A DNA stretch of 64,000 nt from Deltaproteobacteria bacterium (GTDB taxonomy: Bacteria; Desulfobacterota; Desulfobulbia; Desulfobulbales; JAJRZW01), in assembly GCA_024275015.1 (NCBI GenBank), contig JAJRZW010000017.1, positions 1 to 64,000 of the forward strand, written 5' to 3'. The position numbers were made by a program, and so were the translations under genes. This document shows, in pieces, positions 5,924 through 19,203 of this stretch (positions are counted from its first letter, which is position 1; every line of letters begins with the position of its first letter). The notes under the pieces are model-generated. The model was given only the letters and a program-made list of their open reading frames with translations, did no database searches and was not told the origin of the DNA.

Positions 5924-6125
5924 GCGTTCAAGATCGGGAATGGCACAGACGCGAGGCGACAACAATGTTGACAATATATCGGTATATCAACGAGTTACTG
6001 ACGACACGAATGACCCGGATGGCGGTGGGATGAAGCCGATGCCATGGCTTCATCCTGGCAAAAAACATATGAATCCAAATAGAAATATTCATCAACGCCA
6101 TCAAACCGTCACCGATTCAGGTTAT
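5908..6125. repeat. Repeat family E4, copy 1 (termini cctgaatcc...gattcagg)
   Basis: 'acctgaatccgtgagcgttc...gaggcga...gttgacaatatatcggtatatcaacg...caccgattcaggt' is related to 13207-13328. Confidence 0.6.
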
Positions 6126-7955
6126 ATACCTGAACTCCCGCGCCTGAGCCGCCCGACACACCGACGGTCATTCTGCTCCGTCATCCTGCTTGTCTTTTTT
6201 CTCCTTCGCGCCGGGGCCGCTTTTGCCTCCCACGGAGCGAGCATTGATGGAGTGCTGAAATATCCCCCCGGTTTTACCGCCTTTGCCTATACCGCGGCAA
6301 CGGCGAAAAAAGGCGGTCACCTGTATCTTCACGCCCTTGGCAGTTTTGACAAAATGAATCCCTTTACTTTAAGGGGTGCCGCCCCGGAAGGGCTTGAATC
6401 CCTGGTGTTCGAGACCCTGGCGGCACCGAGCCTGGATGAACCGTTTGCCCAATACGGTTTGATCGCAAGCGACATCGCCGTTGCCCCGGACCGACTGAGC
6501 GTCACCTTTACCATCAACCCCCGGGCCCGGTTCTCCGATGGTTCGCCCCTGACCCCGGCGGACGTAAAATATTCCTTTGACACCCTGAAAAGCGGGGAGG
6601 CTCACCCCTTCTACCGCATCTACCTCCGCGACATAATGGATGCCGAGATCATCCCCCCGGACAAGGTTGTCTTTCATTTTTCCCGGGTAAACCGGGAACT
6701 TCACCTGCTGGTGGGTCAGATCCCGATCTTTTCGGAAAAATTTTATCAGCAACACGACTTTGACAGTGCCAATCTCACCCCGCCGCTTGGTTCCGGACCA
6801 TATATGGTTGAAAAGGTCAGTGAAGGCAAGGCGATAACCTATCGCCGCAACCCTGATTATTGGGGCCGCGACCTGCCCTGCCGGAAAAACCAATTTAATT
6901 TTGACCGCATAACCTACCGCTATTACAAAGACCAGATTGTCTCCCTTGAGGCCTTTAAAGCGGGTGAGTTTGACTTCATGCCGATCAATATTTCCAAGCA
7001 ATGGGTCCGGGACGTACGGGGAAAAAATTTTGATTCCGGAGAACTGGCGCGGGCCGAATTCCCCCACCACAATAACCAGGGAATGCAGTGTTTCGTGATG
7101 AACGAACGCCGGCCCCTGTTCACCGACCGCCGGGTGCGGCGGGCCATTGCCCTGGCCTTTGATTTCAACTGGACCAACAGCGCCCTCTTTTTTGGCCAGT
7201 ACCGCCCCAGTTCCAGTTTTTTCAATAATTCCGATCTCGCCGCCACCGGCCTGCCGAGTCCGGCCGAACTCAAGCTTCTCCAACCATTCCGGGACAAATT
7301 GCCGCCCGAGGTGTTCACCATTCCACCGACGCCGATCACCACCGTCCCCCCGCATTCCCGCCGGGGCAATCTCCTCATGGCCCGTAACCTGCTGCGTCGG
7401 GTCGGATGGCGGGTTAAAAACGGGCAACTGGAAAAGGACGGCCGGGTCTTCGCCTTTGATATTCTCCTCGTCTCCCCTTCGTTTGAACGGGTAATGGGGC
7501 CGTTTGTAAAAAATCTTGCCCGTCTGGGGATCAGGGCCGCGTACCGCACCGTTGATCCCAGTCTATACACCCGCCGGGTGCAGAATTTTGACTATGACAT
7601 GGTGGTCACTGTTTTCGGGCAATCCCAGTCGCCGGGCAATGAGCAGCGCAATTATTTCCACTCCTCAAGCCGCGACCGCAAGGGTTCCCGCAATCTCATC
7701 GGACTCGCCGACCCGGTGGTTGACGCCATGGTGGAAAAAGTCATTAACGCCGCCACCACCGCCGAACTGAAAACCGCCTGCCGCGCCCTTGACCGGGTTC
7801 TGTGGTACGGATACCATGTAGTGCCGAACTGGTATATTGACCATCATCGTATCGCCTATCGCGACATCTTCGGCCGCCCGCGGCAATTGCCGACCTATTA
7901 CTCGCCGGAGCAATTGTTGATGACCTGGTGGTACGATCCCGCCACGCGAAACTGA
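6069..7955 (+). CDS. yejA: family 5 extracellular solute-binding protein (peptide/microcin-C-type ABC transporter, YejA-like)
   Basis: 'FTINPRARFSDGSPLTPADVKYSFDTLK', 'GSGPYMVEKVSEGKAITYRRNPDYWGRDLP' and 'FDYDMVVTVFGQSQSPGNEQRNYF'. Start set at the ATG near a signal peptide because the longer ORF begins in repeat E4. Confidence 0.85.
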   Translation: MNPNRNIHQRHQTVTDSGYIPELPRLSRPTHRRSFCSVILLVFFLLRAGAAFASHGASIDGVLKYPPGFTAFAYTAATAKKGGHLYLHALGSFDKMNPFTLRGAAPEGLESLVFETLAAPSLDEPFAQYGLIASDIAVAPDRLSVTFTINPRARFSDGSPLTPADVKYSFDTLKSGEAHPFYRIYLRDIMDAEIIPPDKVVFHFSRVNRELHLLVGQIPIFSEKFYQQHDFDSANLTPPLGSGPYMVEKVSEGKAITYRRNPDYWGRDLPCRKNQFNFDRITYRYYKDQIVSLEAFKAGEFDFMPINISKQWVRDVRGKNFDSGELARAEFPHHNNQGMQCFVMNERRPLFTDRRVRRAIALAFDFNWTNSALFFGQYRPSSSFFNNSDLAATGLPSPAELKLLQPFRDKLPPEVFTIPPTPITTVPPHSRRGNLLMARNLLRRVGWRVKNGQLEKDGRVFAFDILLVSPSFERVMGPFVKNLARLGIRAAYRTVDPSLYTRRVQNFDYDMVVTVFGQSQSPGNEQRNYFHSSSRDRKGSRNLIGLADPVVDAMVEKVINAATTAELKTACRALDRVLWYGYHVVPNWYIDHHRIAYRDIFGRPRQLPTYYSPEQLLMTWWYDPATRN

Positions 7956-7969
7956 AGCCAAGGGATAAA

Positions 7970-9025
7970 ATGTTTTCCTATATCCTCCGCCGTATACTGC
8001 TGATGGTCCCGACCCTGTTTGGGATCATGCTCATCACCTTCAGCGTGACCCAGTTTGTCCCCGGCGGACCGGTGGAACAGATCATCGCCAAGATGGAAAG
8101 CCATGCCAACGGCGGAATCGAGGTCTCCGGGCGGTCGAATTCCCTCTATCAGGGCGATCAGGGCCTTGACCCCGAACGGATCGCCGAACTCAAAAAACTT
8201 TACGGTTTTGACAAGCCGCCCCTGGTCCGTTTCATTACCATGATGAAAAATTACCTTGTCTTTGATTTCGGCGAGAGCTATTACCACCACCGCAAGGTGG
8301 TTGACCTGGTAATCTCGCGGCTGCCGGTGTCAATGTCGCTGGGGCTGTGGACATTCATCATCGTCTACCTCACCTGCATCCCGCTCGGAATAAAAAAGGC
8401 GGTGCGGGACGGCTCCCGTTTCGACGTCTTTTCCAGCACCGTCATCCTCATCGGTTACGCCATTCCCGGTTTTGTCCTCGCCATCCTCCTCATTGTCATC
8501 TTTGGCGGCGGCAGTTTTTTCAACATCTTTCCCCTCCGCGGTCTGGTCAGCGATAATTGGGCCGAGATGGGGGTCATGGCAAAAATCGTTGACTACCTGT
8601 GGCACATGGTCCTGCCAGTGGTTTCGATGACCGTCGGCAGTCTCGCGGTAATGACCATGCTGACCAAAAACTCATTTCTCGAAGAGATCGGCAAGCAATA
8701 TGTCCTTACCGCCAGGGCAAAAGGGCTTTCCGAAAACCGGGTCCTCTACCGCCACGTGTTCCGCAACGCGATCATTCCGATCATCACCGGCTTTCCCGGC
8801 TCATTCATCACCGCCTTTTTTACCGGCAGCCTCCTGATCGAGACCATCTTCTCCTTGAACGGCATGGGGCTTCTCGCTTATGAATCAATCATGAATCGCG
8901 ATTACCCGGTGGTTCTCGGCACCCTGTACTTCTTCACCATCATCGGCCTTGTTTCCCGGCTTCTCTCCGACCTGAGCTACGTCATGGTCGATCCCCGGAT
9001 AACCTTTGACAGCGTGAAACGATGA
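7970..9025 (+). CDS. yejB: microcin-C/peptide ABC transporter permease, YejB-like
   Basis: 'MFSYILRRILLMVPTLFGIMLITFSVTQFVPGGPVEQI' and the 'YVLTARAKGLSENRVLYRHVFRNAIIPIITGFP' EAA loop. Confidence 0.9.
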   Translation: MFSYILRRILLMVPTLFGIMLITFSVTQFVPGGPVEQIIAKMESHANGGIEVSGRSNSLYQGDQGLDPERIAELKKLYGFDKPPLVRFITMMKNYLVFDFGESYYHHRKVVDLVISRLPVSMSLGLWTFIIVYLTCIPLGIKKAVRDGSRFDVFSSTVILIGYAIPGFVLAILLIVIFGGGSFFNIFPLRGLVSDNWAEMGVMAKIVDYLWHMVLPVVSMTVGSLAVMTMLTKNSFLEEIGKQYVLTARAKGLSENRVLYRHVFRNAIIPIITGFPGSFITAFFTGSLLIETIFSLNGMGLLAYESIMNRDYPVVLGTLYFFTIIGLVSRLLSDLSYVMVDPRITFDSVKR

Positions 9026-10053
9026 CCGGTTCCCGGCCCGACTCCCTCCGGCGCCGCCGCTGGCGCCGGTTTAAAAAGAACCGGCGCGGCTACTGCAGCT
9101 TTCTGCTGTTCATGTTCCTCTTTGTCCTCTGTCTCGGGGCGGAGGTCATCAGCAACGACCACCCGATTGTGGTCAGGTACCAGGGGCACACCTATTTCCC
9201 CATTGTCCAGGCCTGTCCCGAGACCACATTCGGCGGCGAATTCGCCACCGAGACCGAATATTCCGGCCGCTTCTTCCGGCAACAAATGAAAAAACCCGGC
9301 AACTGGGCCATCTATCCGCCCAACCGCCATGGTTATGACAGTATCAATTTTGCCGACAGTCGCCCGGTTCCCTCCCCGCCGGGCAACGGCAACATCCTCG
9401 GCACCGACGACCGCGGCCGGGACGTCCTCGCCCGGCTGATCTACGGGTTCCGGGTCTCGGTACTCTTCGGCCTTGCCCTCACCCTGGTCGGCACCATGCT
9501 GGGAATAGCTGCCGGCGCGATTCAGGGATATTTCGGCGGGAAGATCGATCTTTTCTGTCAGCGTTTCATCGAAATCTGGGCGGCCATGCCGGAACTCTAC
9601 CTCCTTATCATCTTTGCCGCGATTTTCAAGCCCAGCATCGTCCTGCTCCTCATTATCCTGTCTCTGTTCGGCTGGATGGGGCTTTCCGACTACGTCCGGG
9701 CCGAATTCCTTAAAAGCCGCAACCTCGACTATGTCACCGCGGCTCGGGCCCTGGGGGTGGGTAATGTCACCATCATGTGGCGTCACCTCCTCCCCAACGG
9801 CATGACTCCGGTTATAACCTTTCTCCCCTTCCGGATGAGCGGCGCCATCCTCGCTCTTACCAGCCTTGATTTCCTCGGCCTCGGAGTGCCGCCGCCGACC
9901 CCCAGTCTCGGCGAACTCCTTGCCCAGGGCAAGGCCAACATTGAAGCCTGGTGGCTGTCTCTTTCCACCTTCATCGTCCTGGTGGGGATGCTGGTCCTGT
10001 TGATATTCATCGGTGAGGCCCTGCGGGACGCCTTTGACCCGAGAAAGGTGTAA
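9022..10053 (+). CDS. yejE: microcin-C/peptide ABC transporter permease, YejE-like
   Basis: 'RWRRFKKNRRGYCSFLLFMFLFVLCLGAEVISND', 'GTDDRGRDVLARLIYGFRVSVLFG' and the 'VTAARALGVGNVTIMWRHLLPNGMTP' EAA loop. Confidence 0.9.
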   Translation: MTGSRPDSLRRRRWRRFKKNRRGYCSFLLFMFLFVLCLGAEVISNDHPIVVRYQGHTYFPIVQACPETTFGGEFATETEYSGRFFRQQMKKPGNWAIYPPNRHGYDSINFADSRPVPSPPGNGNILGTDDRGRDVLARLIYGFRVSVLFGLALTLVGTMLGIAAGAIQGYFGGKIDLFCQRFIEIWAAMPELYLLIIFAAIFKPSIVLLLIILSLFGWMGLSDYVRAEFLKSRNLDYVTAARALGVGNVTIMWRHLLPNGMTPVITFLPFRMSGAILALTSLDFLGLGVPPPTPSLGELLAQGKANIEAWWLSLSTFIVLVGMLVLLIFIGEALRDAFDPRKV

Positions 10054-10065
10054 AAGGACGCGATA

Positions 10066-11643
10066 ATGCTGCTTTCAATAAAAAATCTCACTGTCAACTT
10101 TAACGGAGACGACCGGAAAATCACCGCGGTCAGAGGGGTGGATATCGACATCGCCCGGGGCGAGACCATGGCCCTGGTGGGAGAATCAGGCTCGGGGAAA
10201 TCGGTCACCGCGCTCGCGGCCATGGGACTGCTGCCGACCAGCGCCGAAATCTCCGGCCAGGTAAGTCTCGACGCCAAGACCATGCCTCTGGGGGATGAAA
10301 ACAGAATGAAAAAGATCCGCGGCGACCGGATGGCGATGATCTTTCAGGAGCCGATGACCTCGCTCAACCCCGTTTATACCGTGGGCAGCCAGATCATTGA
10401 ACCGATGATGATTCACAGCGGGCTTGACCGCCGTACCGCCGCCGAGGTCGCTCTGGAATTAATGGAAAAAACCGGGATCAGCGATCCCGGGCGCCGTTTC
10501 AACTCTTATCCCCACGAGCTTTCAGGCGGACAAAGACAGCGGGCAATGATCGCCATGGCCCTGGCCTGCCGCCCTGATCTCCTCATCGCCGATGAGCCCA
10601 CCACCGCCCTCGACGTCACCATTGAGGCCCAGATCATGCGATTGCTCCGGGACCTGCAGCAGGAATTTGACATGGCGGTGCTGCTGATCACCCACGATCT
10701 TAACCTGGCGGCAAAAAACTCCACCCGGATCAAGGTAATGACCAACGGCGAAATCGTCGAGGCAGGCGAAACCGCCGAGGTGTTCCGGGCGCCGCAGCAC
10801 CCCTATACCCGAAAACTGCTGGCCAGTGTCCCCGGGGAAAAACCCCTCAGAACCAGGGAGGCGACCACGATTCTCACCGCCCGCAACCTCTGTTGCCATT
10901 TCCCGATCAAAAAAAATATCTTCGGCCGCGCCCGGGGGGTACTCAAGGCGGTTGACCGGATCAATCTCAGTCTCGGCCGCGGCGAAACACTGGGGGTGGT
11001 GGGAGAATCCGGTTCCGGCAAAACAACCATGGCCATGGCCCTTCTGAGACTGATAAAAAGCCGGGGTGACATAACCTTCAAGGACGCTGACCTGGCGACC
11101 ATGTCCGCCGCCGAATTAATCCGGGCCCGCCGTCACCTGCAGGTGGTATTTCAAGACCCCTTTTCCTCGCTCTCGCCGCGAATGACGGTGGCAAAGATCG
11201 TCGGCGAGGGGCTTAAGGTTCACCGGATCGGCAGGAATAAAAAAGAAAGGCAGACCCTGATCGCCAGGGTATTGCTCCGGGTCGGGCTGACGCCGGATAT
11301 GGCGGACCGTTTCCCCCATGAATTCTCCGGCGGCGAGAGGCAGCGGATCGCCATTGCCCGGGCCCTGGTTCTTGAACCGAAAATAATCATCCTCGATGAA
11401 CCCACCAGCGCCCTTGACATGACCATCCAGGCCCGGATAATTGATCTCCTCCTTGAACTGCAGGCGGAGATGGATCTGTCATATATCTTTATCTCCCATG
11501 ATCTCCGTACCATCCGGGCCATGGCCGATCGGGTAATGGTCATGCACCAGGGCCGGGTGGTGGAAGAAGGCGGCCGCGAGATATTCACCGCCCCGCGACA
11601 TAATTACACCAGAGAGCTGTTTGCCGCCGCCTTTGACGTCTGA
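10066..11643 (+). CDS. yejF: duplicated ATPase subunit of peptide ABC transporter, YejF-like
   Basis: Two Walker A ('[12 protein letters not shown]', '[12 protein letters not shown]') and two signature motifs ('[12 protein letters not shown]', '[12 protein letters not shown]'). Confidence 0.92.
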
Positions 11644-11692: not shown

Positions 11693-12973
11693 TCATTCTG
11701 CCGCGATCCGGATCATTTCATCCAGGGTATGGTCAAGAAAACCCCGTTCGCAGTCTACTCCATCCATGTTTCCCCGGCGTTCATATACCAGATAACGACA
11801 GCCGCCGAAGCACAGGGGCAGATAACCACAGGCACGGCACTGCTCCCGCCGGCGCCACTGACGGGGGCGATAAACGGAGATATCGCCAAGGCCATGCCCC
11901 ACGTCTCCGACCGCGAATTTGTCATGACCGACCATGGAGATACATTTATACAGGCGACCATCCGGGCCGAGGGTGAGGGAATCAGCCATCTCCACCATAC
12001 AGGGCGCGGGCCGGATGTCCGGCGGCCGGTATCCCCTTTTCATCATCTCCCGGCGGATAAAGATGGTGGCGCCGGGCAGCCAGGGCTCGTTGATCGAGGC
12101 GCAGCCGAAAGCGAATTCCGGCAGGGTGAAGGAATCCCGGGTCTGCAGGACCGGATTAAAACGCACTTCAACCCGGTCAGGACCAAGGCCGTATCCGGGC
12201 AGGAGGTCGAGAAGTTCGGGGAAACGGCGGAAGTTATCACGGCTGTAATTACCGCTGAGGGTAACCTTGACGATATCAGCAATGGCGACGATATTATCCA
12301 TGATCCGGTCAAAGGTGGGACCGCCGCCGGCATAAGGGCGGTAATGATTATGAATCTCCGGGGGGCCGTCAACGGTAATCCTGACCCCGGCAAGGCCGAT
12401 TCCTGAAAGCTCCCGGGCAAGCTCCGGAGTCAGGAGGGAACCGTTGCTTACCAGGGTAAAAGAAAATTCCCTGTCCTCCGCCTCGATTCCCGGGGCCAGA
12501 CGGGTGGCAAAGGCACGGATGATTTCCGGGGTCATGAGTGGTTCGCCGCCGTAAAAATCAAGGACAAGCCTTTTTTTGTCATGGCGGCGCAGACGGTCAA
12601 GGATAAAGGCGGCGCTCTGGGCGATGACCGCGTCATCCATCCGCTCTCCCTGCTTCAAACTCCCCTGAAAGCAATAGCGGCAGGCAAAGTTACAGCGAAG
12701 ATTGATGATCACGCAGAGATTTAACACCGGGCTATGCCGGTCTAATTGCGCGAAAAAATCAAGCAGGTCCCGTTGCTCCGCGTCACGGTCGGCAACCAGA
12801 ATACCGTTCGCGGCAAGGATTTCGGCCTCATCCTGGTCAGGTTTCCCGGCAAAAATCCTGGCAACGAGGTCACGGTCGGCCTCAATCAGACCGCCGGTAC
12901 GAAGGGAAAAAAGGTAGACAGTGTCAGGGGCGTGGCGGCTTTCAACCGCGCGGGCGTAGAATGACAGTGGCAT
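11693..12973 (-). CDS. radical SAM/SPASM peptide maturase (putative RiPP-modifying enzyme)
   Basis: 'CNFACRYCFQG' CxxxCxxC cluster, 'LDFYGGEPLM', and C-terminal SPASM cysteines 'CISMVGHDKFAVGDV...CRACGYLPLCFGGCRYL'. Confidence 0.9.
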   Translation of the reverse strand: MPLSFYARAVESRHAPDTVYLFSLRTGGLIEADRDLVARIFAGKPDQDEAEILAANGILVADRDAEQRDLLDFFAQLDRHSPVLNLCVIINLRCNFACRYCFQGSLKQGERMDDAVIAQSAAFILDRLRRHDKKRLVLDFYGGEPLMTPEIIRAFATRLAPGIEAEDREFSFTLVSNGSLLTPELARELSGIGLAGVRITVDGPPEIHNHYRPYAGGGPTFDRIMDNIVAIADIVKVTLSGNYSRDNFRRFPELLDLLPGYGLGPDRVEVRFNPVLQTRDSFTLPEFAFGCASINEPWLPGATIFIRREMMKRGYRPPDIRPAPCMVEMADSLTLGPDGRLYKCISMVGHDKFAVGDVGHGLGDISVYRPRQWRRREQCRACGYLPLCFGGCRYLVYERRGNMDGVDCERGFLDHTLDEMIRIAAE

Positions 12974-12978
12974 GGGGT

Positions 12979-13007
12979 AAAAAAAAGAGCCGGATTATCT
13001 CCGGCCC
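12979..13007 (-). terminator. intrinsic terminator/attenuator-like hairpin between precursor ORF and maturase
   Basis: Minus-strand 'GGGCCGGAgataaTCCGGCTCTTTTTTTT'. Confidence 0.75.
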
Positions 13008-13028
13008 TTTTCGGCGTTTCGCCCCCCC

Positions 13029-13130
13029 TCAGCGGGAAGGCGCCTGGGAGGACAGACAACAGGCCCCGTCTTTGGCGATCTGTGCCACCGATTTCCCCGC
13101 CACCTTCACCTTGAGCATCTTTTTCCGCAT
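13029..13130 (-). CDS. 33-aa putative RiPP precursor peptide MRKKMLKVKVAGKSVAQIAKDGACCLSSQAPSR
   Basis: Hand translation: ATG at 13130, TGA at 13029-13031, preceded by 'ggaggtgacgag' RBS, directly upstream of the rSAM/SPASM gene; too short for the ORF track. Confidence 0.78.
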   Translation of the reverse strand: MRKKMLKVKVAGKSVAQIAKDGACCLSSQAPSR

Positions 13131-13206
13131 CTCGTCACCTCCACGGTCATGGGTTGAAAAAGATGATAAGATAATACCACACCATGTCAGGAATATAAAA
13201 TTTTTT

Positions 13207-13332: not shown

Positions 13333-13396
13333 TTAACAGACCGTTGAAAAACGGACTGTGCGCGACGCATGGACAGCTTTTTCAACGGTCTGTTAA
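13333..13396. repeat. Repeat family E1, short copy with 17-bp perfect terminal inverted repeats
   Basis: 'AACAGACCGTTGAAAAAcggactgtgcgcgacgcatggacagcTTTTTCAACGGTCTGTT'. Confidence 0.9.
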
Positions 13397-15303
13397 AAGC
13401 GCAGCCGCAGACCAGCCTCGATCCAGCGGCGCGGATCAGGATAATCGGTATTGGTATAGCTGTGGCCGTTGAAGAGATTATGGACGGTGGCAAAGAAATC
13501 GCCCGAGATTGCCGCCTTTTCCGGAAGCGGCAGTTGCCGCCGCAGGTTGAGATCCCAGAGAATGTCGTCATAACTGCCTTTGTTGCCCTTTGTCGGGTCA
13601 AGATCCCACCAAGTATAGACCCCGGTCAGATCAAGGGCAAGGCGCTGATTGTCGTAACGTATTGTCATGATGCCCTGATAAGGATCGGGATTATAATTAC
13701 CATCATACTTCTGCACATGGACCATGGTTCCACCGCCGCGGAGGGATATATCATGAAAGGCGGGGGTCTCGAACTCCACCGTTACCCCGGCACGGCGTTC
13801 ATGGTCCCGGTTCACGGTCATGGAGTTCCCCGAGGTCACGGCCGAGGGAACCTCCCGGAAGACATCCTTGATCTCGTGACGGAAAAGCCCGACCTTGTAC
13901 CAGAACAATCCTCCGGCCCGTCCTTCAATCCCGGCCTGATAAGACCACACCTTTTCCACCTCAAGCTCGGGGTTGGGATCAAAAAAGAGACCGCCGCCGG
14001 ATGTATTTACAAGTCCGGGATCAGCATGTCCACGGGCAACTGAAAAACGGGCCAGGGTCTGACGGCCAAGCCGCCAGGTAAGCCCGATACTGGGGCTGAA
14101 AACGTCCTCGGTGGTAACAGAGTTCTGGTCAAACCGGATACCGGGAGTAAATGACAGGACGCCGGCAACCACGGTGTCGTTGAGATAAAAGGCGCGGCGT
14201 TCTATCCGGGGAAAAGCACTCTGCGCCGGCGGGGAACCGTAATAGGCCCCGGCGGCAACCATCTGGTTCAGTTCACCGCGGGAAAAATCAATCCCGCCGA
14301 CCACGGTGTGGCGGCCGAATTTTGCCACCAGGCGGGAATCAACGCCGGTGCTTTTTTCATCATAGAGCAGGTTCTTGAAGAGAGCGCCAAAGGGCCCGTA
14401 GACGCCGTTTTCCATATTGTTCTGGACATATTTATTATTCAGACGCCATGCGGCAGTGGAAATGGAAAAATTGCCGCCTATATCATGTTCAAAGGCGAGA
14501 CGGTACCACGAGGCCCTTACCTGGCCATTGGAGTAAAGGGCGGCATAGGGCAGGTTGCCGTAAACATAGGAAGGATCGCTGTAGCCCCCGCTCAGGGTCA
14601 GGCTGGACGAATCTGAACGACTCAGGACAAATTTGCCGAACAGGGAGTCGTTTTTATAAACGCGGTCTTTTCTCAGGCCGTCTGACTTTTGCTCACCGGC
14701 GTAAAGAAAATATCCCACCGGGCCGGTACCGCCCGTCCCGGTCAAACGACTGTCGGAGCTGTCCCGTTCGCCACTGGAGTAATACCCCTCAATCTCCGGA
14801 AACCTGCGCGCGGCAGGCTCACGGGTAATGACGTTGATCACCCCGCCCAGCGACGACCCCCAGGCCGAGGAGGCGGGACCGCGGATAACCTCCACCCGCT
14901 TGATAATTTCCACCGGAATGATCATCGCGTCGGGGTTGCCGCCGGCGAGAGAGTTAAAGGGAATGGAATCCACCAGTAACAGGGTATGGTTATTGACGGA
15001 TCCGTTGATCTCAAGGCTGGCGTAACCGCCGTAATCATGGCCGGAAAAGCCGACAAACAGACCGGCGACCCGCCTCAGGATCTCGTTTAAATTATGGGCG
15101 TTCATCGCCGCAATCTGATCACGGTCGATGATCACCACGTCTTCAGCGGTCTGGGACAGGGGCTTGGCGTCCCGGGTGGCGGTCTCGACCAGTTGGTCCT
15201 GGTCGAAAAACAACATCATTCCGGAATCCGCCATATCGTCGGCAGAAACGATGGTGCTGTTAAAGATCGTGAACGCAAACAAAAAAAGTAGAAACCGCTT
15301 CAT
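13393..15303 (-). CDS. TonB-dependent outer-membrane receptor
   Basis: Signal peptide, plug 'QTAEDVVIIDRDQIAAMNAHNLNEILRRVAGLFVGFSG', 'IKRVEVIRGPASSAWGSSLGGVINVITR', C-terminal 'EAGLRLRF'. Confidence 0.92.
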   Translation of the reverse strand: MKRFLLFLFAFTIFNSTIVSADDMADSGMMLFFDQDQLVETATRDAKPLSQTAEDVVIIDRDQIAAMNAHNLNEILRRVAGLFVGFSGHDYGGYASLEINGSVNNHTLLLVDSIPFNSLAGGNPDAMIIPVEIIKRVEVIRGPASSAWGSSLGGVINVITREPAARRFPEIEGYYSSGERDSSDSRLTGTGGTGPVGYFLYAGEQKSDGLRKDRVYKNDSLFGKFVLSRSDSSSLTLSGGYSDPSYVYGNLPYAALYSNGQVRASWYRLAFEHDIGGNFSISTAAWRLNNKYVQNNMENGVYGPFGALFKNLLYDEKSTGVDSRLVAKFGRHTVVGGIDFSRGELNQMVAAGAYYGSPPAQSAFPRIERRAFYLNDTVVAGVLSFTPGIRFDQNSVTTEDVFSPSIGLTWRLGRQTLARFSVARGHADPGLVNTSGGGLFFDPNPELEVEKVWSYQAGIEGRAGGLFWYKVGLFRHEIKDVFREVPSAVTSGNSMTVNRDHERRAGVTVEFETPAFHDISLRGGGTMVHVQKYDGNYNPDPYQGIMTIRYDNQRLALDLTGVYTWWDLDPTKGNKGSYDDILWDLNLRRQLPLPEKAAISGDFFATVHNLFNGHSYTNTDYPDPRRWIEAGLRLRF

Positions 15304-15471
15304 ACCGCCCCCATTTTTTCGTCAATAACCACGGACCTGATATCCTGTCAACTCCTTACCCTGTAAAGGATTGAGGAATCTCAATGAGGATTAGCAGAAA
15401 TTATTACTCTTGCCAAGCGAGATAATTGCTTAACCCTGAGATATTTTCTGGTATAACTAAAAAAAGGTGCT

Positions 15472-15630
15472 TTAGCAGTCCGTTGAAAAACGGGCTGTAT
15501 GCGGCTGATGTCCGCGCCGCCGATTTTGACGGGTTGAAAAACCCGGTGAAATCGAGAGGTTGTCCGGAACCATGTTTTGGCCAACCGGAGAGAGAAAAAG
15601 CCATGGACGGCTTTTTCAACCGTCTGCTAA
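15472..15630. repeat. Repeat family E1, long composite copy
   Basis: 'ttagcagtccgttgaaaaacggg...gacgggttgaaaaacccggtgaaatcgagaggttgtccgg...ccggagagagaaaaagccatggacggctttttcaaccgtctgctaa'. Confidence 0.9.
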
Positions 15631-15644
15631 CAGACATTATTGAT

Positions 15645-15832
15645 GAAATTGTAACTCCCCGCTCCGACTTGAAACGGCGATTTCCGGGCCGCCGGGCGGC
15701 GGGCTGCTAAAACCCCGAACTCGGGCTAAACCCTCAGACATGCGGGATTTTTTAACGTATCCCGCAGTCCGCCGCCTTTTCCGAAAATCGCCGAAGACGC
15801 CTCCGCGGGGAATTGTTACGAGTCCATCATTA
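15645..15832. repeat. Repeat family E2, copy 2
   Basis: 'gtaactccccgctccgacttgaaacggcgatttccggg...ctaaaaccccgaactcgggctaaaccctcagacatgcgggattttttaacg...gcggggaattgttacgagtcc'. Confidence 0.88.
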
Positions 15833-15862
15833 TTGCGCAGGTAACAACAAAAACTTTTTTGC

Positions 15863-16804
15863 ATGTCGGCAACCACAATCTCCATAAGACGCATGGCCTT
15901 CCCCTCATGGCCACTGGTTATCATCGTCGGGTTGTTATCTCTTTTTGCGTCTCCGGCCAAGGCCATGGAAAAGAATATCCTCATCGTTGAGAGTTCCGCC
16001 CTGAAACCTTATGAAACCGTGGCCTTAAGCTTTATTGAAGAGCTCTCCAAAATCATGGTCACCGGTAATACCCTCACGGTCAGGGGGTTTAACTACCGCC
16101 GGATCGTCCTGTCCCGGACGATGAACTCCATTGCCGTTGACGAAAAAAACGATCTGATCCTCGCCATCGGCGATCGGGCATTCAAGGCCGCGACCAGGGG
16201 CAAGGCCCCGGTTATCCATGTTCTGGTCAGTCACCCGGAAGCAATCAGGGGACAAGGATCCCGGACGACCGGGGTCGAGATGCGCCTTGATCCGGCAGGA
16301 CAATTAGACGCCCTGCTCGCCATCTTTCCGGCGATAAAAAAAATCGGGGTCATCTACAGCCATAAAAACAGTGCCCAAATGGTGCGCGGCGGCCGCCGCC
16401 ACCTTGGCGCCAGGGCCACGATCATCGCCCTGGCGGCCGAGAACGCCCGGGTCCTTCCGGCCCGTCTCGACGCCATGCCCCCGGTCGACGCCCTGTGGAT
16501 CCTGCCCGATCCCCTGCTTGTAATCCCGGAAACAATAGAAAAAACCATCCTCTTTTCTCTTGAACACCGCATCCCGGTTCTGGTCTTTGCCCCCAAATAT
16601 CTAAAGACCGGGGCCGCGGTGGCGGTGGGTTTTGATCTCGTCGGTATCGGTCGTCAGGCTGCGGCCATGGCAAACGCGGTCTTAAACGGCAGGGCAATAA
16701 AAAGAATCAGGCCGGAAATGCCGTGCCAGAAGACCACGCTCAACTCCAGGGTGATCAGGCAATTACGAAAATGGCACACCGAATCCGAACCGGGGAGGGA
16801 ATAA
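15863..16804 (+). CDS. ABC-type substrate-binding (DUF534/ABC_sub_bind-like) sensory protein
   Basis: 'ILAIGDRAFKAATRGKAPVIHVLVSHPEAI', 'IKKIGVIYSHKNSAQMV', 'PVLVFAPKYLKTGAAVAVGFDLVGIGRQAAAMANAVL'. Confidence 0.75.
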   Translation: MSATTISIRRMAFPSWPLVIIVGLLSLFASPAKAMEKNILIVESSALKPYETVALSFIEELSKIMVTGNTLTVRGFNYRRIVLSRTMNSIAVDEKNDLILAIGDRAFKAATRGKAPVIHVLVSHPEAIRGQGSRTTGVEMRLDPAGQLDALLAIFPAIKKIGVIYSHKNSAQMVRGGRRHLGARATIIALAAENARVLPARLDAMPPVDALWILPDPLLVIPETIEKTILFSLEHRIPVLVFAPKYLKTGAAVAVGFDLVGIGRQAAAMANAVLNGRAIKRIRPEMPCQKTTLNSRVIRQLRKWHTESEPGRE

Positions 16805-18427
16805 ATGTCTTTACATCTGAAAAATCGCCTCGATTTCTCCACCCGGGTCTTCATCTATCTGTTCGCGGCCATGCTGGCGGTGTTCGCGGTCTATAATTTT
16901 ATTTTTTTTCATATCCATAAAAAGAGTCAGGAAGACGCCATAATTCAGGACGGCAGCCTTCTCTGCCGCATGCTGGCTGAAAACTTCCGCCTGGCCGTAT
17001 TCAGCGAAGACCGCCACCAGCTTGACCTTATAGCCCGGACCATCATGCCCCTTGAAGGAATCGCATTGATCCGGGTCTATAACAGCGACGGCCACCTTAT
17101 CTATCAGAGTGACTCCCGGGAAAAAGACCAGGACAACAAGGCGGTAATTCCCCTCGGCCTTGCCGGTACATCCCGGCCGATTTATTACGATTCCGGCAAT
17201 AAACTAAAGTTCTGGACCCCGGTCCGGGGCAAATCATTTACCGACATCGACATATTCTTTACCGACGATTCCCGCCCCGCTCCCGCCCGGATCCTCGGCT
17301 ATATCAACATGGACATGAACAAGTCCAGCGGCAGAAGGGAGATCAAAAACTTTATCTTCGGAGAACTTGTTGCCGCCATATTTTTTATCTTTGTCTCTGG
17401 TTTTCTGAGCTTCATCATTGCCAGAAGTGCTGCCGCCCCACTGAAACAACTCCTTAAAAAAGTACAGGGAGAAACTGCCCCCGGGGGCTCATACGACGAG
17501 TTCGGCCTCCTGACCCGGGCCTATAACGACCTGATCCAACGACTGGGGGACAGCTTTGCCACCGTCGACGAGTTCAACCGCAGTCTCGAAGAAGAGGTAA
17601 ACCTCCGCACCGAGGAACTCAAACAGGCCAATACCCGGATGCAGACAACGATGATTGAACTGAAAGAGAGCCAGGCCCAGGTAATCCAGGCGGAAAAGAT
17701 GGCCGCCCTCGGCCTCCTGGTCGCCGGGGTTGCCCATGAGATCAACAACACCATCAATTTTATCTCCGGGGCCCTGCCCCCCCTTGAGAAAAACCTTGAG
17801 GCCCTGAAGACTCGCCTTAACCACGACTCTGATAACGACGCCGCCGGCATTTGCGAAAATCTTACCACCCTGATGGATAACATCCGTGAAGGAGCAAAGA
17901 GGACCAGCGAGATCGTCAGGAACCTGCAGGAATTTTCCCGCCCCCATCCCCGGGAGTTCAAACTCTCCTCCCCCCGGCGGATAATCAATACCACCCTGAA
18001 CCTGATGCGGCCCAAGTTCAAGGATAGAATCGAGATAAGTACGAAATACCAGGAACCTGAGACCGAAATCCCATGCTACCCGGGACAATTGGGGCAGGTG
18101 TTCATGAACATCATCCTCAACAGTGTCCAGGCGATAGAAGGCCAGGGGCGGATCGTGGTAAGTACCACAAGCAATGCCGGGTTCTACCGGATCAAAATCG
18201 CCGACGACGGCCCCGGGATCTCTCCTGAGACCGGGACGCGGATATTCGATCCATTTTTCACTACCAAGGCCGTCGGCCACGGCACCGGCCTTGGTCTGAG
18301 CGTCAGTTATTCAATAATCAAGAAGCATGATGGCGAGATCAGACTGAACCCGTCTCCGTTTGGGCATGGCTGTGAGTTTGAAATCATACTGCCGGTTAAG
18401 AATGACCGGGAGGGAAGCAGGCAATGA
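16805..18427 (+). CDS. sensor histidine kinase
   Basis: HAMP-like region, '[23 protein letters not shown]' H-box, '[44 protein letters not shown]'. Confidence 0.9.
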
Positions 18428-19203
18428 CACAGGCAACAGAGACAAAAATTCTCTACGTTGATGACGAGAAGATCAATCTTGATAATTTCCGTCTCTCTTT
18501 TGCTGATGAGTTCACCATATTCACCGCCGCCGATGGTGCTGATGCCCTTGATATCTTGAAGAAACATGGGGAAATGGCGGTGGTGGTGACGGACCAGCGA
18601 ATGCCGTTGATGACCGGGGTCGAACTCCTGCGGCAGGTTGCCGGGGTTTCACCCCATACCGTGCGGATGATCCTCACCGCCTACACTGATCCCGAAGACA
18701 TAATCGCCGCGATTAACCTGGGACAGATCAACCGTTACATCATCAAGCCATGGAACACCGCGGAACTGCGGCTCTGTCTGAAAAACGGGGCTGAGCTTTA
18801 CCGGCTCTCAAGCAAAAACGAAGAATTGCTCACCAGCCTTAAAAAAAAGAATCAGGAACTTTTCGAGTCAAAAAATCTGTTGGAAATCAAGGTCAGGGAA
18901 AGGACGGCGCAGCTCAAAGACGCCAATACCGACCTCAAGGCCCTGAACCGGGAATTATTGCAAAAGATAGTCGAGCTGCGCGATACCCGGGAACAGATGG
19001 GAATGGTCAGCAAACTCATCCCCATCTGTTCCTATTGCAAAAAGATACGCGACGATCACGATTACTGGCATGAACTTGAGATATATATGGCAAAAGAGGG
19101 AATGATGGACTTTTCCCACGGCGTCTGCCCGGATTGTTACAGGGTCAAGGTCCAACCGGCCCTTGACGCCATTAAGGGGCCGGACGAGCAGGAACCGGAA
19201 TAA
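18424..19203 (+). CDS. response regulator with coiled coil and C-terminal Cys-pair module
   Basis: REC 'ILYVDDEKINLDNFR...VVVTDQRMPLMTGVELL'; tail 'ICSYCKKIRDDHDYWHELEIYMAKEGMMDFSHGVCPDCY'. Confidence 0.85.
   Translation: MTQATETKILYVDDEKINLDNFRLSFADEFTIFTAADGADALDILKKHGEMAVVVTDQRMPLMTGVELLRQVAGVSPHTVRMILTAYTDPEDIIAAINLGQINRYIIKPWNTAELRLCLKNGAELYRLSSKNEELLTSLKKKNQELFESKNLLEIKVRERTAQLKDANTDLKALNRELLQKIVELRDTREQMGMVSKLIPICSYCKKIRDDHDYWHELEIYMAKEGMMDFSHGVCPDCYRVKVQPALDAIKGPDEQEPE

Follow-up and report, generated by a model that had tools for sequence, protein, structure and literature searches.

The geopeptide precursor and its maturase

The window analysed here is a 64,000-nt stretch of contig JAJRZW010000017.1, from a deltaproteobacterium of the order Desulfobulbales. 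Its minus strand contains an ORF coding for a 33-aa peptide, MRKKMLKVKVAGKSVAQIAKDGACCLSSQAPSR (positions 13029–13130, stop codon within these coordinates), which lies exactly 55 nt upstream of a co-directional gene coding for a 426-aa radical SAM/SPASM protein (11693–12973). The start codon is preceded by a Shine-Dalgarno sequence, GGAGG, read from the sequence at 13138–13142 (minus strand); the Shine-Dalgarno and start together read CCGTGGAGGTGACGAG-ATG. The initial annotation had placed an ORF of 33 codons, preceded by a strong Shine-Dalgarno, about 55 nt upstream of a radical SAM gene, and this description proved exact. A candidate promoter for the peptide and the maturase (CTGACA-16-TATCAT, 13163–13190, minus strand) is weak, being a consensus match alone. 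The precursor comprises a leader, MRKKMLKVKVAGKSVAQIAKDGA, and a core-like tail, CCLSSQAPSR.

The radical SAM protein matched the NCBIfam model TIGR04280 over its full length with a score of 433.6 bits (curated cut-off 400). This value lies towards the bottom of the family's range, which extends to 679 bits, and the nearest relative among the loci compared was about 45% identical; a search for related loci with the maturase alone returned just two distant radical SAM genes. By its score and cysteine pattern, the window protein is a member of the TIGR04280 geopeptide maturases, with which it shares the SPASM cysteines and a position downstream of a short Cys-Cys peptide. The resemblance to geopeptide systems that the initial annotation had suggested is therefore supported, since the maturase scores above the TIGR04280 cut-off and a matching precursor family exists. 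The radical SAM cluster motif CxxxCxxC (12671–12694, minus strand) contains C94, C98 and C101, while the SPASM domain (11750–12001, minus strand; TIGR04085 match of 50 bits, cut-off 27) contains seven cysteines between C325 and C408, arranged as C325-x13-G-x4-C344, C379-x2-C382-x5-C388-x3-C392 and C408. These ten residues were invariant in an alignment of 51 homologues including the window protein, which bears out the CxxxCxxC and C-terminal SPASM cysteine set noted earlier and completes the latter.

An AlphaFold2 model of the maturase (mean pLDDT 94.5) showed an N-terminus resembling a RiPP recognition element (RRE) ahead of the radical SAM and SPASM domains. This RRE-like domain (residues 7–71; 12761–12955, minus strand) consists of three strands followed by three helices, and is also covered by a full-length alignment with CteB, the SCIFF thioether maturase, which was the best solved relative (PDB 5WGG; fold E 3.9e-23, sequence E 1.7e-25). 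CteB (PDB 5WGG/5WHY) and the window maturase thus have in common the RRE, the radical SAM barrel and the SPASM domain, although they are only about 20% identical. Their substrates also differ, SCIFF precursors containing six cysteines and geopeptides an adjacent cysteine pair. To our knowledge, no SCIFF system has been described with a TonB-dependent receptor.

The NCBIfam precursor model corresponding to TIGR04280 is TIGR04229 (‘geopeptide’), which was found by scanning the peptides; TIGR04281 was considered for this role and rejected as an unrelated family. The window peptide has features of TIGR04229 geopeptides, namely a hydrophobic V-L leader strand, a G, a CC pair near the C-terminus and a place directly upstream of the maturase, but the leader of the window peptide is basic (GKSVAQIA) instead of acidic (LDEG). 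It was not matched by TIGR04229 at either E≤1 or E≤10. The TIGRFAM search that the initial annotation had proposed was thus positive for the maturase and negative for the peptide. When ten peptides were scored with TIGR04229, one alone came near the cut-off (29.6 versus 30), and it was not that of the window. This kind of maturase and peptide is therefore already named in NCBIfam, while the window precursor falls outside the present model and would probably go unannotated. A profile was also made of 74 peptides that precede maturases in other genomes, the window peptide being excluded. This leave-one-out profile found the window ORF at E 7e-6, the sole significant match among 1741 window ORFs (the next-best reached E 0.5). 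Its profile score was not attained by any of about 1960 scored shuffles that preserved the CC pair.

Conservation of the peptide and predicted chemistry

TIGR04280 homologues were drawn from two sets of genomes, 395 for the phylum and 194 for the order, and their upstream surroundings were examined. The resulting set held 95 homologues, eight of them distant and below the cut-off and 87 closer. A short upstream ORF with a Cys-Cys pair was called for 75 of the 95. A profile search added peptides that lie further upstream or use different starts, so that ORF calling and profile search together assigned a CC-type upstream peptide to about 83 of the 87 closer homologues; in one of these, at locus L120, the tail is degenerate and contains just one Cys. 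ATG-started ORFs of 25–48 aa with CC near the C-terminus were present within 300 nt upstream of 73 of the 95 maturases, the corresponding figure for random positions in these loci being 3.6%. Two loci contain a pair of geopeptide systems in tandem (L102, where the two are 4.6 kb apart, and L038); the peptides of such pairs are divergent and each system has a separate receptor. At L056, two precursor peptides precede one maturase.

The Cys-Cys pair was invariant in all 77 called peptides, and a GGAG, GAGG, AGGA or GGGG core preceded every one of them; both figures have to be read with the calling criteria in mind, which included CC and a Shine-Dalgarno score. Features outside these criteria were also conserved: an [IV]-[IV]-V-L strand and, counting from the first Cys, G at -12, K at -11, A at -5, G at +3, P at +5 and K/R at +9. 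The leader consensus across peptides was K-x-[IV]-[IV]-V-L-x-x-G-K. Of these family-conserved residues, the window peptide shares G, K, V, I, A and CC as well as the final R. Over 18 independent pairs of close homologues, pooled pN was 0.16 and pS 0.49 (pN/pS 0.33), which indicates that geopeptide precursors evolve under purifying selection. The initial annotation would have been undermined by the lack of a conserved small ORF upstream of maturase homologues, or by substitution patterns unlike those of a translated ORF; the ORF was instead present in about 83 of 87 relatives, with CC invariant, and the substitution ratio is that of a translated ORF. The idea that the small ORF is untranslated, that its conservation is coincidental and that the maturase has another substrate is very improbable: it could draw on the failure of the NCBIfam precursor model to recognise the window ORF, but the coding signature already contradicts it, as do the leave-one-out match and the invariance of CC.

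SPASM enzymes that contain an RRE put thioether or C-C links on short peptides. In geopeptides, the maturase would modify the tail from the Cys-Cys pair, most likely introducing one or two thioethers as in ranthipeptides and sactipeptides; thioethers on Cys are favoured because of the likeness to CteB, and a -2 Da thioether chemistry on the CC tail, as the initial annotation had suggested, is plausible by analogy. Inspection of the called peptides, the leader Gly included, revealed no invariant acceptor position around CC, so the type of crosslink is not predictable. The D at -3 from the first Cys of the window peptide has the spacing of the Asn20-Cys23 link of NxxcA (review PMC8326336). In other members, position -3 is occupied by T, M, S and other residues.

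A receptor, a binding protein and a sensor accompany the geopeptide genes

The peptide and maturase genes do not stand alone. Immediately upstream of the peptide, on the same minus strand, lies a gene coding for a 636-aa TonB-dependent receptor (TBDR; 13393–15303). Divergent from it, on the plus strand, are genes for a periplasmic binding protein of the PF04392 (ABC_sub_bind) family (15863–16804), a membrane sensor histidine kinase with an sCache_4-like periplasmic part (16805–18427), and a response regulator made up of a REC domain and a Cys-rich tail (18424–19203). These four genes span positions 13393–19203. Pfam analysis detected no DNA-binding domain in the response regulator; its Cys-rich tail after REC (ICSYCKKIRDD...YW...GVCPDCY) could be a metal site. 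ExbD is present in the genome.

The intergenic regions of the cluster contain an interspersed repeat with inverted ends, AACAGACCGTTGAAAAA, which has 15 matches in the window (0.02 expected). Copies are found at 13335–13394, at 15474–15628 and in about a dozen other places of the window; one short copy lies between the receptor and the peptide, and another between the receptor and the binding protein. The genome holds 190 copies with at most one mismatch, and a genome of the same genus 82. Several copies are paired, in plus and minus orientation, about 137 nt apart, forming units of about 153 nt, and the repeat is therefore MITE- or REP-like.

Comparison across the related loci establishes that the partnership of these genes with the peptide and maturase is conserved. 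When neighbouring genes were clustered, the TBDR family was found in 81 loci, as against 87 loci in the maturase cluster. The TBDR was adjacent and co-directional in 73 of 95 loci; in most it lies directly upstream, with the peptide in the gap between it and the maturase. The PF04392 protein and the histidine kinase were each present in 66 of 95 loci and the response regulator in 44 of 95, figures affected by the many loci cut by contig ends. In Geobacter-like loci the receptor is divergent, with the kinase, binding protein and receptor genes on one strand and the peptide and maturase genes on the other; two gene orders thus retain the same partner genes. The cryptic two-gene locus initially proposed is hence a real pair, but merely part of a larger conserved unit that has the receptor, binding protein and kinase alongside.

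Co-occurrence was analysed in the 194 genomes of the order, a geopeptide-type binding protein being defined as one scoring at least 224 bits with the A2 profile, a cut-off picked after the scores had been seen. Of the 61 genomes that encode the maturase, 59 had such a protein, as did 10 of the 133 that do not, and presence or absence of the two genes agreed in 182 of the 194 genomes; none of these counts is corrected for shared ancestry. In six of the ten genomes with the binding protein and no maturase (G474, G397, G463, G471, G513 and G516), a contig end cuts the locus on the relevant side or lies close to it; the beginning of the maturase gene was visible at the contig edge in G474. The seventh, G559, encodes a diverged maturase-like protein (about 30% identical), whose gene, at locus L160, adjoins that of a divergent receptor belonging to it; the binding protein and kinase genes are some 5 kb distant. 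In the last three (G540, G421 and G468), the receptor, binding protein and kinase were all full-length ORFs. Only a C-terminal remnant of the maturase was recognisable by tblastn in G540 and G421, and tblastn detected no remnant in G468. In G421, a genome of two contigs, the peptide was seemingly lost along with the front of the maturase; a whole-genome search reported one in-frame TGA near the start of its binding protein. This pattern of non-producers comprises three genomes, two of them fragmented, and recalls siderophore systems, for which loss of synthesis with retention of the receptor is known. A search of a genome of the same genus (G395) for the maturase, the binding protein and an orthologue of the receptor found none of the three. 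Finally, maturase and receptor similarities were correlated (r 0.85), which is weakly suggestive and could be explained by shared inheritance alone.

The receptor and binding protein are too distant from solved structures for a ligand to be named. The nearest solved relatives of the receptor were the colicin I receptor, BtuB and siderophore receptors; its profile also matched the PQQ transporter, among many others. The nearest solved relatives of the binding protein were the Trp-bound 3lft, 3lkv and CD0873, while LuxP and XylFII were among its fold matches. It might be argued that the RiPP pair is real but that its neighbours (TBDR, binding protein and kinase) handle an unrelated nutrient such as a corrinoid or an aromatic compound, the synteny being inherited. 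The likeness of the binding protein to amino-acid-binding proteins would fit such a role, as would the full-length match of the receptor profile to BtuB and the inverted-repeat element separating receptor from peptide in the window. Gene order, however, varies between groups while the partnership persists, the maturase and binding protein agree in presence and absence across the order, and G395 is without every component looked for; we consider independent function unlikely, yet deserving of attention.

A possible export, re-uptake and sensing loop

TonB-dependent receptors import scarce ligands, and binding protein–kinase pairs sense periplasmic ligands. We propose that the locus makes a Cys-modified geopeptide RiPP that is exported, re-imported and sensed in a metallophore- or pheromone-like loop, a reading to which we give even chances. 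For the chemistry, the export and the recognition of the product by receptor and binding protein, we infer the following sequence of events. The RRE-like N-terminal domain of the maturase would bind the hydrophobic leader, and the radical SAM/SPASM core would then modify the tail from the invariant Cys-Cys onward. The trimmed product would be exported from the cell, where the co-encoded TBDR, probably dedicated to it, would bind it and return it to the periplasm. There, the PF04392 protein would present it to the two-component system of kinase and regulator, and the regulator would then control the geopeptide locus.

An extracellular role is suggested by the receptor, by the three genomes that keep it while lacking the maturase, and by MFS transporters in seven loci. 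These transporters (MFS_1/MFS_3) lie in or beside the geopeptide cluster at L131, L128, L058, L139, L056, L054 and L059; at the first three, an MFS gene of opposite orientation separates the peptide from the maturase. Neither an exporter nor a leader protease was conserved across the loci or found in the cluster of the window, and the window as a whole holds no exporter for the product. It also counts against the loop that the nearest solved relatives of the binding protein bind amino acids, not peptides. Converging on the maturase is a yejABEF-like oligopeptide ABC importer (5940–11643, plus strand; SBP_bac_5, two permeases and a double ATPase). The same arrangement beside a maturase recurs at L130, which is from another family. 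The importer was considered as the inner-membrane route for product uptake and rejected, since the whole set lies beside the maturase in that one other locus only.

Two further readings concern the nature of the product. PqqU takes up external PQQ, and the geopeptide product might likewise be a small redox cofactor or precursor (PQQ- or mycofactocin-like) salvaged by the receptor. SPASM maturases do also make cofactors, the PQQ transporter is among the many matches of the TBDR profile, and genes for antibiotic-type immunity or export are not conserved across the loci. This possibility is nonetheless improbable, as the conserved neighbours include neither a dehydrogenase nor an additional processing enzyme and the invariant CC suggests sulphur chemistry, not the Glu/Tyr of PQQ or the Val/Tyr of mycofactocin. 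A secreted antimicrobial resembling sactipeptides or ranthipeptides, regulated or resisted through the neighbouring receptor and sensor genes, appears slightly more improbable still. The CteB-like maturase, the short Cys-containing core and the MFS transporters of a few loci would suit it, but immunity genes, bacteriocin exporters and proteases are not among the conserved neighbours and, unlike bacteriocin loci, the system is widespread, single-copy in most genomes and nearly always paired with the receptor.

In the limited literature searched, no paper describing the product or role of geopeptides, TIGR04280 or TIGR04229 was found, nor any description of their association with a receptor and sensor, which by itself is no evidence that the association is new. 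The conserved receptor, binding protein and kinase turn the loop of export, re-uptake and sensing into a concrete, testable hypothesis for geopeptide function, and if it is true, the receptor and binding protein would be reagents expected to bind the mature product. A wide group of bacteria would then possess a ribosomal, radical-SAM-tailored extracellular ligand comparable to siderophores. More broadly, and with a tentativeness that leaves us inclined to doubt it in this full form, geopeptides could be widespread radical-SAM RiPP metallophores or pheromones of deltaproteobacteria-like lineages, with a dedicated TBDR, a binding protein–kinase relay and receptor-only ‘cheater’ genomes.

The proposed loop has counterparts among known systems. 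In LuxP/LuxQ and XylFII-LytS, as in the window, the gene for a periplasmic binding protein lies beside that for a membrane histidine kinase, with no cognate permease in the cluster; the window protein differs in having a PF04392 fold, closest to amino-acid-binding proteins. It is generally known that methanobactin and siderophore loci combine a small exported ligand with a dedicated TBDR, the same logic as proposed here, metal binding by geopeptides being hypothetical. A general family scan of the window neighbours gave no match to MbnB/MbnC or other metallophore biosynthetic families, and the geopeptide locus differs from methanobactin and siderophore loci in using different biosynthetic enzymes and in adding a binding protein–kinase sensor.
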